This document shows positions 2,016 to 7,669 of a DNA stretch of 28,875 nucleotides, piece by piece. The number at the start of each line of letters is the position of its first letter. Within the stretch, counting starts at the first letter, position 1. The stretch is from a virus. The stretch lies in IMG/VR virus record IMGVR_UViG_3300035670_001007, positions 1 to 28,875 of that record. The stretch is one strand, 5' to 3'. The notes beneath the pieces are model-generated. The model was not told the DNA's origin and ran no database searches. It saw nothing but the letters and a program-made list of their open reading frames with translations. The position numbers and the translations under genes were made by a program.

Positions 2016-4316
2016 ATGAATTATGAAGATTTCGTGCAAAGTAAACGGGCCTATGTTCCGGCCAGTGGGTTTGACGTAGATGTAAATGCTATTTCTCCGC
2101 AGATGTTTCTTTTTCAGCGTGACATTGTGCGATGGGCATTGCGACGCGGCAAAGCTGCCATCTTTGCCGATTGCGGAATGGGCAAGACTCCGATGCAGTT
2201 GGAATGGGCGCGGCATGTTGTTGACCATACGCGCAGGAAGGTGTTGATTTTGGCTCCGTTAGCCGTGTCACACCAGACCGCGCGTGAAGGCGTAAAATTT
2301 GGTATTCCCGTGCATGTTGCTCGGCACGGCTCTGATTTGCGTAGTGGCATCAATATCACCAACTATGACCGTTTGAGTCATTTTAATCCGGATGATTTTG
2401 GCGGTATTGTGTTGGATGAATCTTCTATCCTCAAGGCGCAATTCGGCTTGATGCGCCATGAGATTACGGATTTTGCTCGCAGCATCCCTTACAGGCTGGC
2501 GGCGTCGGCCACTCCTGCACCTAATGACCTGGTGGAGCTAATCAATCATGCTGAGTTTTTCGGCATTATGTCTGAGGCCGAAATCAAAGCTCTGTTTTTT
2601 ACGCAGGACGGGAACAGTAGTAATAAGTTTCGGCTCAAGCGGTATGCAGAAGAAGACTTTTGGAGATGGATGGCATCCTGGTCGGTTGCGTTGCGGCGTC
2701 CTAGCGATTTGGGATATGCCGATGATGGTTTAATCTTGCCGCCATGCACAGTGACGCAGCATGTAGTTGATGTGGATGCGGTGCAAGCGGGCATGCTATT
2801 TGCAGTTGAGGCGGTCGGTTTGGACGAACAACGTCGAGCGCGCAAGGCGAGTTTGCATGACCGAGTAAAAATGGCGGCGCAGTTGGTCAATAGTAATGAT
2901 GATCCGTGGCTGGTATGGTGTGACTTGAATGATGAGAGCGCAGCGTTAGCAAAGGCCATTCCAGACGCGATTGAGGTTGTTGGTAGCGACAGCCCTGAAC
3001 ACAAAGAAGATGCTATGCTTGGATTCGCAGAAGGTCGCTATCGCGTGCTAGTGACAAAGCCAAGTATAGCCGGATGGGGCATGAACTGGCAGCATTGCGC
3101 AAATGTTGTGTTTGTGGGACTGTCACATAGTTACGAGCAGTATTATCAAGCGGTGCGCCGCTCGTGGCGTTTTGGGCAAAAGCGAGCAGTATCTGTACAT
3201 GTTATCACGTCTACCGCCGATGGTTCAGTGGTAGCTAACATTGAGCGCAAGGAGCAACAAGCGATGGAAATGTTTGATCGTATTGTGCGGCATATGAGCA
3301 TTAACACCGATCTGGTGGGACAGGCGACGCGTGAAGAGATGAATTACCGAGAAGATGTAGCGAGTGGGCCAGATTGGACAATGTATTTAGGTGATTCAGT
3401 CAAGACGATGCGCCATATTCCTGACAACAGTGTAGGATTATCGGTTTTTAGCCCGCCGTTTCCGGGCATGTATGTATACACCAATAGCCCGCACGATATG
3501 GGCAATGTCAGTGACATTGATCAGATGATTGATCAGTTTCGTTTTCTTATGGGCAAGGATGCTATGTATCGGATTTTGATGCCGGGGCGGAATGTGTTTA
3601 TTCACATTACGCAGGGTGTCGCTCAGAAGGCGCGCGATGGGTACATCGGCATCAAGGATTTTCGCGGCAAGATTATCCAAATGATGCAAGATGAAGGATG
3701 GATTTATTACGGCGAAGTTGTCATTGATAAAGACCCACAACTCAAGGCAATGCGCACTAAAGACCACGGGCTGATGTTTAAGAGTTTGGTTACAGATGCT
3801 GCACGGATGCATGCGGCTTTGCCTGATTACCTATTGCAATTTCGCAAACCAGGCGAAAACCCTCAACCGATTGAGGCAGGGCGGCATCTTGGAGCCAAAG
3901 GATGGGTGTCTAATTACGAATGGATTTTGTGGGCGCGGCCAGTTTGGTATGCAGCGGATTACGAACCAGGCACATGGCGGCCTGATTATAATGGCGATGG
4001 ATGTGAGCATGGCATCCGGGAAACTGATGTGCTGAATGTGCGACAAGCGCGAGAAACAGACGATGAACGTCATTTATGTCCGTTGCAGCTGGGCGTGATT
4101 GAGCGTGTGGTTAAAGTGTGGAGCGCGCCGGGGGATGTGGTGTACAGTCCATTTGCGGGCATCGGTTCTGAGGGCTATGTTAGTCTGCGCGAGGGGCGTA
4201 AGTTTATCGGTGGCGAACTCAAGGAAGGCTACTGGCGCAATGCTATTCGCAATTTGGAGAATGCAATTGCTGAGCGCAATCAAACATCATTGTTTGATAT
4301 GGCGGCGGGAGATTAG
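2016..4316 (+). CDS. Snf2-type helicase fused to DNA methyltransferase
   Basis: 766 residues in two parts. Residues 1-445 form a Snf2/superfamily-2 ATPase: motif I CGMGKT (53-58), motif II LDESS (133-137), motif III SATP (164-167) and motif VI QAVRRSWRFGQ (378-388), the arrangement typical of Snf2 proteins. Residues 453-766 form an amino-methyltransferase with SPPF (479-482) as catalytic motif IV before FAGIGSEG (713-720), the SAM-binding motif I, so it is of the beta order (IV then I). SPPF fits N4-cytosine or N6-adenine transfer. No nuclease domain is seen, so it is not a complete restriction enzyme. Helicase-methyltransferase fusions occur in phages and may guard phage DNA from restriction. 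Codon use is AT-richer than downstream genes. GAGGTG precedes the ATG. Confidence 0.85.
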   Translation: MNYEDFVQSKRAYVPASGFDVDVNAISPQMFLFQRDIVRWALRRGKAAIFADCGMGKTPMQLEWARHVVDHTRRKVLILAPLAVSHQTAREGVKFGIPVHVARHGSDLRSGINITNYDRLSHFNPDDFGGIVLDESSILKAQFGLMRHEITDFARSIPYRLAASATPAPNDLVELINHAEFFGIMSEAEIKALFFTQDGNSSNKFRLKRYAEEDFWRWMASWSVALRRPSDLGYADDGLILPPCTVTQHVVDVDAVQAGMLFAVEAVGLDEQRRARKASLHDRVKMAAQLVNSNDDPWLVWCDLNDESAALAKAIPDAIEVVGSDSPEHKEDAMLGFAEGRYRVLVTKPSIAGWGMNWQHCANVVFVGLSHSYEQYYQAVRRSWRFGQKRAVSVHVITSTADGSVVANIERKEQQAMEMFDRIVRHMSINTDLVGQATREEMNYREDVASGPDWTMYLGDSVKTMRHIPDNSVGLSVFSPPFPGMYVYTNSPHDMGNVSDIDQMIDQFRFLMGKDAMYRILMPGRNVFIHITQGVAQKARDGYIGIKDFRGKIIQMMQDEGWIYYGEVVIDKDPQLKAMRTKDHGLMFKSLVTDAARMHAALPDYLLQFRKPGENPQPIEAGRHLGAKGWVSNYEWILWARPVWYAADYEPGTWRPDYNGDGCEHGIRETDVLNVRQARETDDERHLCPLQLGVIERVVKVWSAPGDVVYSPFAGIGSEGYVSLREGRKFIGGELKEGYWRNAIRNLENAIAERNQTSLFDMAAGD

Positions 4317-4517: not shown

Positions 4518-4779
4518 GGCGCGCCGGTTGTGCCACCATCGCCACGCGACGATGGTGCAGGCAATCAATGCCGACTTCGGGCCAGCGGATGGCTGGTATG
4601 TGACGTGGCAATGCGATGACTGCGGTGCGAGCATCATGGATAAACCTGTAACGCCGGAAGATGTTGACGCCGGAGCCGACTTGCCGTGGTGGGACGAACA
4701 GCTATTCGAGGATGGTGTAGAGCGCGCCTGCCGTAGTTTCTGGGCCACAGCAAACCTACTCAGTCAGGCGGCGCGATGA
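4510..4779 (+). CDS. hypothetical protein, 89 aa, Cys/His containing
   Basis: ATG at 4510 overlaps the previous gene's end by 8 nt. A TTG at 4486 is in frame but less likely. The product begins MLEARRLCHHRHATMVQAIN and has a CDDC pair near residue 37, which together with the early Cys/His cluster could bind a metal. The centre is acidic (EDVDAGADLPWWDEQLFEDG) and it ends in a helix. The family is not recognised. It directly precedes and overlaps the replication initiator gene (ATGA), so it may be a replication accessory protein, which is inference. Confidence 0.6.
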   Translation: MLEARRLCHHRHATMVQAINADFGPADGWYVTWQCDDCGASIMDKPVTPEDVDAGADLPWWDEQLFEDGVERACRSFWATANLLSQAAR

Positions 4780-5534
4780 GCATTAAATGGAGTGGCATGG
4801 TTTGGCACAATAGTCAGCAGACTGGCAGCGGATTGTTAGTGCTGCTGGCTATTGCCGACCATGCTAATGACGATGGCATTTGTTGGCCGAGCGTGGCGCG
4901 TCTGGCGCGCATGGCGCGCGTGTCTGAGCGACAATGCCAACGTCTAATCTCGCAGCTGGTAAACGCCGGTGAATTGGCCGTAGAGCGTGGTGGGCATGGC
5001 CCAAAGAATACAACCGTCTATCGGATTTTGCCAGTTTTGGCCGAAAATAAGGGTGACATAGCTGTGTCACCCTTAACGGAAAATAAGGGTGACATCCAGG
5101 GCATTAAGGGTGACATCCAGCGCGCTAAGGGTGACATAGCTATGTCACCCGAACCGTCAATAGAACCGTCAATAGAAGCAGCAGAAGAGCGTGCATCTGA
5201 GCCAACGCCGGAACCGACGCCGGAACCAACAGCACCTGCCGCTGCTGCTAAATCTGAGACAACCCGCGACGCTTGGATAATCGAATATGAAAACGTGTGG
5301 GGCATGATGGTTGCCAGTCCGTACATAGCGGAGCAAATAACCGACTGGCAATCACGTGTGACATTCCCCGCATGGCAGCACGCGCTCCGAGAATCAGCGC
5401 GCGCCAACGCTCGTAACTGGCGTTATCTGTCACGCGTCCTGGAACGCTTAGAGCGCGACGGCTACCAGGAACCACAGGCCACACCAACCGCAACCACAAC
5501 CACGATTGACATTGATCTGGAGCTGCCACTATGA
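4776..5534 (+). CDS. phage replication initiator (HTH plus DnaD-like C-terminus)
   Basis: 252 residues. The N-terminal part (about 10-85) is a winged-helix/HTH_36-type DNA-binding domain (LLVLLAIADHANDDGICWPSV, then a helix with SERQCQRLISQLVNAGELAVER), the usual start of phage replisome organiser proteins. A low-complexity linker (about 92-160) carries four KGDI repeats and a TPEP run. The C-terminal part (about 165-235) is helical (WIIEYENVWGMM, WQHALRESARANARNWRYLSRVLERLE), like the DnaD-type domain that loads helicase. The next gene, overlapping by ATGA, is the DnaB-like helicase, its expected partner. The linker DNA holds iteron-like repeats, so the gene probably contains the origin it binds. 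Confidence 0.8.
   Translation: MSIKWSGMVWHNSQQTGSGLLVLLAIADHANDDGICWPSVARLARMARVSERQCQRLISQLVNAGELAVERGGHGPKNTTVYRILPVLAENKGDIAVSPLTENKGDIQGIKGDIQRAKGDIAMSPEPSIEPSIEAAEERASEPTPEPTPEPTAPAAAAKSETTRDAWIIEYENVWGMMVASPYIAEQITDWQSRVTFPAWQHALRESARANARNWRYLSRVLERLERDGYQEPQATPTATTTTIDIDLELPL
5049..5150 (+). repeat. iteron-like repeats: candidate replication origin
   Basis: AAGGGTGACA occurs in direct orientation at 5049, 5085, 5106 and 5127 (the last three at 21-bp spacing, two helical turns), and inverted as TGTCACCC(TT) at 5065 and 5143. Two of them make palindromes: 5049-5074 (arms AAGGGTGACA / TGTCACCCTT) and a perfect 22-bp one at 5129-5150. All lie within the initiator gene linker, as lambda iterons lie within gene O. 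The repeats encode KGDI, so coding and binding roles coincide. No strongly AT-rich unwinding segment is obvious beside them. Confidence 0.65.
5151..5174 (+). repeat. 12-bp tandem repeat next to iterons
   Basis: GAACCGTCAATA is repeated exactly twice in tandem (5151-5162 and 5163-5174), encoding the peptide repeat EPSI. It abuts the last iteron palindrome. It may be part of the origin or simple linker slippage. Confidence 0.6.
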
Positions 5535-6937
5535 CAACTGACACGATTTCACCGGCTAGTTTGCTTGGCTTAACCAACGCCAACCAGGAAATCACTGTCC
5601 TGGCCGCCATGCGCGCCGATATGCCGCTGGCTATTGAACTGGCGCAACTACTCACCGCAGCCGATTTTTATGACGTCCGGCGGCAGGTTGTGTTTCAGTC
5701 CATACAAAACCTGTTGCTTGGTGTTGACACTGTTGACACGCCAGCCATTGTCGCCGAGTGCCGCAGCGTTATCCGTGACCGCAAGCTCAAGGTGACGATT
5801 GACGCTGACTATATCGACAGCCTTGACGCCGGGGACATTCGCCGCGCGCGTTCCTATGCCAACAGCATCAAGCGTTTGGCATGGCTGCGAGGGGCGGGCG
5901 ATTTTGCCTACTGGTTAGTTGAAGAGCTACAGACGCGCCCCGACCCTGAAACACTGTTCGCAGCTGCGCAGGAACGCTGGCAGACGTTACAGCCCAAGAC
6001 CGCCGATAGCAAGTTTGTTTACGGTTGGGATACCATAGCACTACATGACGAAATCATGCGTCAGCGCGAGCAGGCGCGCGCCGACGGCATTGTCAGTCGG
6101 TTCGACTGGCCGTGGAATTCCTGGAATGAGTACATCCGGCCACTGCAACCAGGCTTTGTGGGCATCCTTGCCGCGCCGGACGGTATGGGCAAGACGACGT
6201 ACCTGGAACAGATAGCCGAACATTGGGCGCGTGTCGGGTTCAATGTGGTCTACGTCCACCTGGAAGATAGTCTCGAATACAAGCTAGACAGACGCCGCGC
6301 ACGCGTCAGCCGGGTAAGTATCAGCCGCATCCAGGACGCGACGCTCACCGACGAAGACCGCGCCAAGCTCAAGGCGGGTGACGAAAAGTTGGATTTGTGG
6401 GCAGGGACGCTGCATTACTACCACGCCGCCGGGGAGAGTATGACGGCCATCGTGCGCGAGTTGGAGACGCGCGTCAGTGAGGGTACATGCCAAGCGGTTG
6501 TGTTCGACTACCTGGACAAAGTACAGCCCAGCCGCGCGCAGGCCACGCTGTACGGTTCCAACCCGTGGGAGCGACAGGCCAACGATATGGAACAGCTCAA
6601 GACGTTTGCGGAGAAATCCCGCATTCCCGTGTTCACGGCCACACAGGGCAATAAATCTATGCAGTCGGGCGGGCAGCAGACGCGGCAGGCCATCCAGGGC
6701 AGCGGGCAGAAATCCCAAAAGGCGCAGCTTGTCATAATCGTGACGCGTGACATCGTGGGCGAACAGGGACTGCGCGACGGCAGCGGGCGCGAGTTGGCTA
6801 AGGCAGGCGAGTATTCGCCAGTGGTGAAACTGCGCATCGACAAGAGCAACATCGGGCGCACCGGCGATTTGCAACAGTACCTAATCGGCGAATATTTCAC
6901 GATTGCCGATATGCGCACAGAGCGCAAGGAGATATAG
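5531..6937 (+). CDS. dnaB: DnaB-type replicative helicase
   Basis: 468 residues, the normal length for DnaB. The N-terminal helical domain (about 15-155) has the DnaB opening with a conserved LTAADFYDVRRQVVFQSI segment, a linker follows, then a RecA-like core. Walker A is APDGMGKTT (215-223) and Walker B is VVFDYLD (323-329). The hexamer moves 5'-3' on the lagging strand and is loaded by the initiator encoded just upstream (ATGA overlap). The Walker A differs from the usual GxPxxGKS form by a GMGKT ending. No separate primase is visible in this window, so priming is likely done by the host or by a gene outside it. Confidence 0.85.
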   Translation: MTTDTISPASLLGLTNANQEITVLAAMRADMPLAIELAQLLTAADFYDVRRQVVFQSIQNLLLGVDTVDTPAIVAECRSVIRDRKLKVTIDADYIDSLDAGDIRRARSYANSIKRLAWLRGAGDFAYWLVEELQTRPDPETLFAAAQERWQTLQPKTADSKFVYGWDTIALHDEIMRQREQARADGIVSRFDWPWNSWNEYIRPLQPGFVGILAAPDGMGKTTYLEQIAEHWARVGFNVVYVHLEDSLEYKLDRRRARVSRVSISRIQDATLTDEDRAKLKAGDEKLDLWAGTLHYYHAAGESMTAIVRELETRVSEGTCQAVVFDYLDKVQPSRAQATLYGSNPWERQANDMEQLKTFAEKSRIPVFTATQGNKSMQSGGQQTRQAIQGSGQKSQKAQLVIIVTRDIVGEQGLRDGSGRELAKAGEYSPVVKLRIDKSNIGRTGDLQQYLIGEYFTIADMRTERKEI

Positions 6938-6938
6938 C

Positions 6939-7022
6939 ATGAGCTACAGTTGGGTAGAACTACTCACCGTCTGTGTGCTGAATTTCATCGCCGGCTATCT
7001 TTCCGGCAAATACCTGGATTGA
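6939..7022 (+). CDS. 27-aa single-helix membrane peptide
   Basis: AAGGAG lies 9 nt before the ATG and the frame closes after 27 codons. The peptide is MSYSWVELLTVCVLNFIAGY plus a short LSGKYLD tail, essentially one hydrophobic helix. It sits between the DnaB gene (start directly after its stop) and thyX, whose own SD follows. The strong ribosome site and helix support a real product. Family and role are unknown. Confidence 0.45.
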   Translation: MSYSWVELLTVCVLNFIAGYLSGKYLD

Positions 7023-7039
7023 AAAACAAGGAGCGCAAC

Positions 7040-7669
7040 ATGAACGTGAAACTAATCAGCGTGACACCGGACGCCGAGGCGACGATGGCATACATCGCGC
7101 GTGTATCCAACCCGGCCAACCAGGATAATCCCGACTATGCCAAGCTGCTGGGTTACTGCATCCGGCACGGACACTGGAGCGTGTTTGAGCATTCGCACAT
7201 GACGTTGGAGATTACCACGTCGCTGGCCGTAGCTGCGCAAATCCTACGCCATCGCTCATTCACGTTTCAGCAACTATCCCGACGCTATAACGGGGATTTG
7301 CCGTTATTCGAGTTGGTGCATCTGCGCAGACAGGCCGAGAAAAACAGGCAAAGCAGCGCAGAGCCGATTGTTGACGATTACCTCGCAGAGCTAATCGACG
7401 CGCACCTGGCGCATACCGTCTGGCTGTACGACAAGCTCACGCGCGCAGGCGTGGCGCGTGAGTGCGCGCGTATGGTATTGCCACAGGCCACCAGCACCAC
7501 GCTGTACATGACGGGCAATTGCCGCAGTTGGATTCATTATCTCCAACAGCGTACGCAGCCGGACACACAGCTAGAGCATCGCATGGTGGCGATAGCGGCT
7601 CGTGAGATATTTGACGTTCAATTCCCGACGGTAGCAGCGGCATTGGAGGCAACACATGCGAAGAGCTAA
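7040..7669 (+). CDS. thyX: flavin-dependent thymidylate synthase ThyX
   Basis: 209 residues, beginning at an ATG 6 nt after AAGGAG. The ThyX signature RHR-x7-S is present as R70-H71-R72 through S80 (RHRSFTFQQLSRRY). ThyX converts dUMP to dTMP using methylene-tetrahydrofolate, NADPH and FAD as a homotetramer, raising thymidine supply for phage replication. Upstream residues IRHGHWSVFEH (about 41-51) match the conserved substrate-site region. It lies among replication genes, consistent with early expression. Confidence 0.93.
   Translation: MNVKLISVTPDAEATMAYIARVSNPANQDNPDYAKLLGYCIRHGHWSVFEHSHMTLEITTSLAVAAQILRHRSFTFQQLSRRYNGDLPLFELVHLRRQAEKNRQSSAEPIVDDYLAELIDAHLAHTVWLYDKLTRAGVARECARMVLPQATSTTLYMTGNCRSWIHYLQQRTQPDTQLEHRMVAIAAREIFDVQFPTVAAALEATHAKS

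Follow-up and report, generated by a model that had tools for sequence, protein, structure and literature searches.

A virus record of 28,875 bases, analysed as a whole and referred to here as the window, carries a predicted replication initiator gene whose middle part is crowded with direct and inverted DNA repeats. This raises the question of whether these repeats mark the replication origin of the phage, as a sequence-only reading of the same DNA had proposed, or have been retained for some other reason.

The initiator gene and its repeats

The features of the locus, with positions in the window, are as follows.
4776-5534, + strand: HTH_36 replication initiator gene (252 aa), containing the proposed origin (Pfam HTH_36, E 8e-11; phrog_391, E 3.5e-20)
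4776-5027, + strand: winged-helix DNA-binding domain (aa 1-84), from AlphaFold2 pLDDT and a solved-fold match
4923-4964, + strand: recognition helix (from S50), with R52 and R56 inside it
5031-5267, + strand: predicted disordered linker (aa 86-164), which holds all of the repeats
5048-5075, unstranded: first palindrome, imperfect, two facing half-sites, 28 bp with one mismatched pair
5085-5094, + strand: half-site AAGGGTGACA
5106-5115, + strand: half-site AAGGGTGACA, 21 bp after the 5085 copy
5127-5136, + strand: half-site AAGGGTGACA, 21 bp after the 5106 copy, overlapping the terminal palindrome
5129-5150, unstranded: terminal perfect 22-bp palindrome GGGTGACATAGCTATGTCACCC, the conserved master site
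5151-5174, + strand: 12-bp tandem, two copies of GAACCGTCAATA, comprising two AACC(A/G)TCA boxes (5152-5159 and 5164-5171)
5151-5190, unstranded: mildly AT-enriched stretch after the palindrome (52.5% AT, against 45.2% for the gene)
5268-5456, + strand: helical C-terminal domain (aa 165-227), with helices in the model and a weak DnaB_2/DnaD resemblance
5531-6937, + strand: DnaB-like replicative helicase (DnaB_C, E 1.8e-17; phrog_19, E 6e-39)

The match of the gene product to HTH_36 was significant (42 bits against a Pfam cut-off of 25), and phrog_391 is annotated as 'replication initiation O-like'. AlphaFold2 gave block-mean pLDDT values of 93-98 over residues 1-70 and 77-84 over residues 71-90, and a search of solved structures with the model returned the N-terminal domain of pSK41 RepA as the best match to the winged-helix domain. 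N-terminal domains from RepA_N plasmid initiators (4pql, 5kbj and 4pt7) figure among the top matches, one of them in complex with DNA, with generic winged-helix regulators ranking close behind; the whole-model TM-scores were low because the winged-helix domain alone aligns. The match of the C-terminal domain to DnaB_2 (E 0.0013) fell below the curated Pfam cut-off, and this domain is likely to be the helicase contact. The helicase gene directly follows the initiator gene and overlaps its stop codon. For the initiator protein as a whole, there were no close relatives among viral contigs, and named phages gave distant ones only. Elsewhere in the early region, an ORF at 2016-4316 is a notable fusion in which an N6_N4 DNA methylase is joined to a helicase portion (Helicase_C and a weak SNF2 match), and a ThyX-type thymidylate synthase gene lies downstream of the helicase at 6950-7669.

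The repeats proved to be largely as they had been described. The 10-mer AAGGGTGACA occurs on the plus strand at 5049, 5085, 5106 and 5127, the last three copies being spaced by exactly 21 bp as claimed, while of the two inverted copies that had been reported, the one at 5065 is exact and the one at 5143 is partial, matching at 8 of 10 bases. The reported palindromes and the 12-bp tandem are present (the terminal palindrome being the perfect one), and all of these elements lie within a linker whose predicted disorder (pLDDT of about 50) agrees with its having been called unstructured. A further 12-bp near-tandem at 5204-5230 encodes PTPEPTPEP. The exact 10-mer was found nowhere else in the 28.9-kb window. 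When the codons of the window gene were shuffled synonymously, six copies of GGTGACA were reached in 16 of 20,000 shuffles and five copies of the 10-mer in none of 20,000; the repeats are thus non-random.

Selection on the linker DNA and covariation with the recognition helix

Since the repeats lie in coding sequence, the linker peptide (KGDI...SP, EPSxEPS) might itself be selected for contact with a replication protein, with the likeness of the DNA being secondary, and KGDIAMSPEPS and EPS do recur among phages. We examined this by a degenerate-codon search for the peptide GDIAMSP, for which 1,536 codings are possible. All 18 initiator contigs encoding the peptide (some of them near-identical pairs) share one palindromic coding, compared to none of nine unrelated contigs, and in this set there was no case of KGDI being kept while synonymous changes destroyed the repeat. 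Furthermore, relatives retain the motif as DNA but read it in other frames, so that it is translated as different peptides (VTQLCHP, RVT, NHQ and TVI), and same-orientation half-sites, whose modal spacing across 57 relatives is 21-22 bp, hold 21 or 22 bp even though a step of 22 shifts the reading frame. Selection on the linker repeats therefore acts at the level of the DNA, and the repeated KGDI would be its by-product, as had been suggested from the sequence. Selection for the peptide, which also leaves the excess of repeats over synonymous shuffles to be explained, is contradicted by the frame use and the synonymous test, and we give it next to no credence.

If the DNA is the selected target, its repeats might be expected to follow the protein that reads them. 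We gathered initiators by the residues preceding the recognition helix, and added named phages by protein similarity, so that neither the helix nor the DNA repeats played a part in choosing the family; 88 representatives at less than 70% identity were kept. Repeats beyond those of synonymous shuffles were present in 72 of 87 initiator genes, compared to 4 of 68 neighbouring ORFs. The helix residue R52 is nearly invariant across the HTH_36 initiator family, and the GTGACA repeat covaries with R56. Three or more copies of GTGACA were restricted to initiators whose recognition helix bears Arg at position 7 (16/34 vs 0/52, p 2e-8), an association first noticed in early relatives and then counted on a wider set that retains a few of them; with Arg at both positions 3 and 7, the figures were 15/23 vs 1/63 (p 3e-10), although shared ancestry weakens these statistics, the three well-supported phylogenetically independent pairs being essentially all in the expected direction and not significant. 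GTGACA repeats are missing from roughly half of the initiators that have this Arg at position 7. Other recognition helices pair with other repeats, including ACCCCCGCA, CCCCGAAC and GGGTGCA. This covariation, together with the different repeats that accompany other helices, suggests that the initiator is the binder of the repeats.

The palindrome, the second element and the origin reading

The terminal palindrome was also traced at the level of DNA. A narrow scan of all viral contigs with GGGTGACAT-NNNN-ATGTCACCC, using DNA only and leaving the centre free, gave 14 contigs. In 13 of these the motif falls within an HTH_36 initiator's linker; the centre was AGCT in all 13 despite the free NNNN in the query. 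The wider palindrome GTGACA-N-AGCT-N-TGTCAC was present in 105 viral contigs, compared to eight for a scrambled palindrome of equal composition, whose surrounding fetched DNA contained no HTH_36 gene. GGTGACA-N-AGCT-N-TGTCACC was found in 27 contigs among species genomes, with titles naming Pseudomonadota, Actinomycetota, Acidobacteriota, Planctomycetota, an Anaerolineae bin and others, host assignments that are provisional because many of these contigs are metagenome bins. At 118 of 133 loci the palindrome lies in or beside an HTH_36-like ORF; among the remaining loci, several are truncated copies. The palindrome was confined to a single locus in each of 20 phage records. A blastn search with the 41-bp terminal region had a single hit in phages, over 17 bases (E 8), and no hit in E. 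coli genomes. The link between palindrome and initiator across phages is thus near-exclusive.

In five contigs (L057, L062, L079, L095 and L115) the palindrome occupies the gap between the large terminase and a small-terminase-like gene and, in the DNA examined, falls outside HTH_36 genes, the placement in L062 being taken from an identical flanking ORF; partial second copies are present in some of the five. The palindrome is therefore not strictly confined to initiator genes, and the terminase-side copy may be a further site for the initiator, or may belong to an element that has borrowed the palindrome. These copies are what one would expect if the palindrome were a site for recombination, resolution or packaging lying in the initiator gene by happenstance. 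However, such a site would not account for repeats that covary with the initiator's own recognition helix, or for the different repeats of initiators with other helices, and we regard this explanation as very improbable.

A further element, AACC(A/G)TCA, which is strand-specific, makes up, in two copies, the 12-bp tandem noted in the sequence-only reading. It was noticed while reading linkers, and in this first count, which was not pre-planned, 69 of 87 initiators had it on their coding strand irrespective of iteron class, with 126 sense and 8 antisense copies against 17.7 expected by synonymous shuffling. The copies are read in all three frames, follow each other mostly in steps of 10-12 bp, and reach a density about 47-fold that of neighbouring ORFs. 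An open ranking of 7-mers likewise placed the element near the top, with a strong strand bias. A scan for triple boxes gave at least 120 loci, and at no fewer than 90 of these the boxes are on the coding strand of an HTH_36-like ORF. Among the matches listed, the others included some eleven truncated copies, stretches of simple-sequence repeat, and a pair of replication-protein-like ORFs that did not match the HTH model. Four AACCATCA boxes at exact 11-bp steps were seen in L372 (a complement-strand ORF) and L441 (11506-12424), both replication-protein-like and outside the HTH_36 model; the L372 protein had no match in Pfam, so the box may extend beyond HTH_36 initiators. The element was absent from most of the enterobacterial and Vibrio HTH_36 genes examined. 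A blastn search of a plasmid collection with the AACCGTCA tandem returned the Neisseria gonorrhoeae records NZ_CP119140.1 and NZ_CP119142.1, which at 2.17 Mb are chromosome-sized though filed as plasmids. The constancy of the box across iteron classes argues against its being read by the variable part of the recognition helix, and we propose that the pair at 5151-5174 is a strand-opening or loading element.

Base composition and DnaA boxes were also considered. In both the palindrome-bearing and the protein-selected sets, the AT content just 3′ of the last repeat is 7 points above the synonymous expectation (se 0.6-0.7); the window's own enrichment is mild. The 49.7 kb of initiator genes bearing the palindrome contain 10 consensus DnaA boxes, all of them at -107 to +55 of the palindrome, compared to 4 in 174 kb of flanks. 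In the protein-selected set they were not clearly enriched (5 against 2.3 expected, three of them in one gene), so that the support from DnaA boxes comes from the palindrome-bearing set. The window's initiator gene contains no consensus DnaA box. One initiator gene of the collection (L159), which also bears GGGTGTCA repeats, has three in-gene TTATNCACA DnaA boxes. Cumulative GC skew showed no turning point at the site, in a fragment whose mostly co-directional genes make the skew uninformative.

A winged-helix protein with palindromic sites inside its own transcription unit could also be expected to limit its own expression, in which case the sites would mainly be an autoregulatory operator and replication would start elsewhere. 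Yet the sites lie about 270-400 bp into the gene rather than at a promoter, and an operator would not need the synonymous AT enrichment, the DnaA boxes and the phased AACC(A/G)TCA boxes seen in relatives; we consider this explanation improbable. The covariation with the helix, the AT enrichment after the repeats, the DnaA boxes and the single-locus occurrence all add support to the reading of the repeats as an origin, which is strongly supported on computational grounds. We infer that 5048-5174 is very probably the phage's own origin, at which the initiator would bind, the DNA would be melted and the helicase would be loaded.

By analogy with lambda O and pSK41/pPR9, the HTH_36 winged-helix domain would most likely bind the GGGTGACA half-sites, two helical turns apart, and would engage the terminal 22-bp palindrome too, probably in dimeric form. 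The resulting complex could melt the AT-enriched DNA immediately 3′ to the palindrome, where the strand-specific boxes recur once per helical turn, and the C-terminal domain would then place the DnaB-like helicase encoded by the next gene on the opened DNA.

The 20-22 bp palindrome and the AACC(A/G)TCA boxes recur in very diverse phages and prophages from several bacterial phyla. It seems somewhat more probable than the contrary that the HTH_36 initiators of diverse phages share one grammar of in-gene origins, in which lineage-specific iterons, matched to the recognition helix by a code, are followed by a class-independent AACC(A/G)TCA array for unwinding or loading, with a common reader. Such an array, strand-specific and in steps of one helical turn, would be an undescribed element whose reader is common to all hosts or to all initiators, and it raises the question of which protein this is, given that the adjacent iterons vary between lineages. 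To our knowledge, origins are unmapped in almost all phages, and a shared grammar would make them readable from sequence for very many uncultured ones. If the pattern holds, origin and initiator target would be predictable from one gene, recognition helix and DNA site would be physically linked and move as a module, and the dual-coding constraint of a linker and an origin in the same bases could be measured across many genes.

Comparison with known systems

The origin of lambda lies inside the O gene (PMC7466680), and a design shared with lambda had been put forward for the present locus. The anatomy agrees: in both, iterons lie in the middle of the initiator gene, with a spacing of 20-24 bp in lambda and 21 bp in the window, and in lambda they are directly followed by AT-rich DNA (78% AT in the next 40 bp of the lambda record), a feature shared by the family (+7 points) and mild in the window. 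Lambda O also leads to helicase delivery, a further likeness to the system proposed for the window. The two diverge, however, in their initiator domain and in the sequence of their repeats. The window protein matches HTH_36 instead of a lambda O domain, Pfam giving no match to the lambda O family at E ≤ 0.01; the lambda repeats are unrelated to those of the window, and AACC(A/G)TCA boxes are absent from lambda O. Lambda uses a P-type loader, whereas the window has a phage DnaB-like helicase as its next gene.

The HTH_36 proteins Eru5, 6, 8, 11 and 13 of Stx phages, encoded near cI in lambdoid phages, share the domain with the window protein, and the main text of their description makes no mention of iterons (PMC8951638).

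In pSK41, the origin lies centrally within rep and the linker is dispensable, and a pPR9 chimera with an HTH_36 (PF13730) N-terminus replicates autonomously (PMC5703833). The window protein's highest-ranking fold matches include N-terminal domains of this group. These are plasmids, however, and the window protein has no match to the RepA_N domain (PF06970) at E ≤ 0.01 in Pfam. The open-licence papers searched yielded no description of these repeats in HTH_36 initiators. Since in-gene origins are already known from lambda O and pSK41 RepA_N, the proposed HTH_36 case represents, as far as the papers searched go, a new variant on this arrangement.
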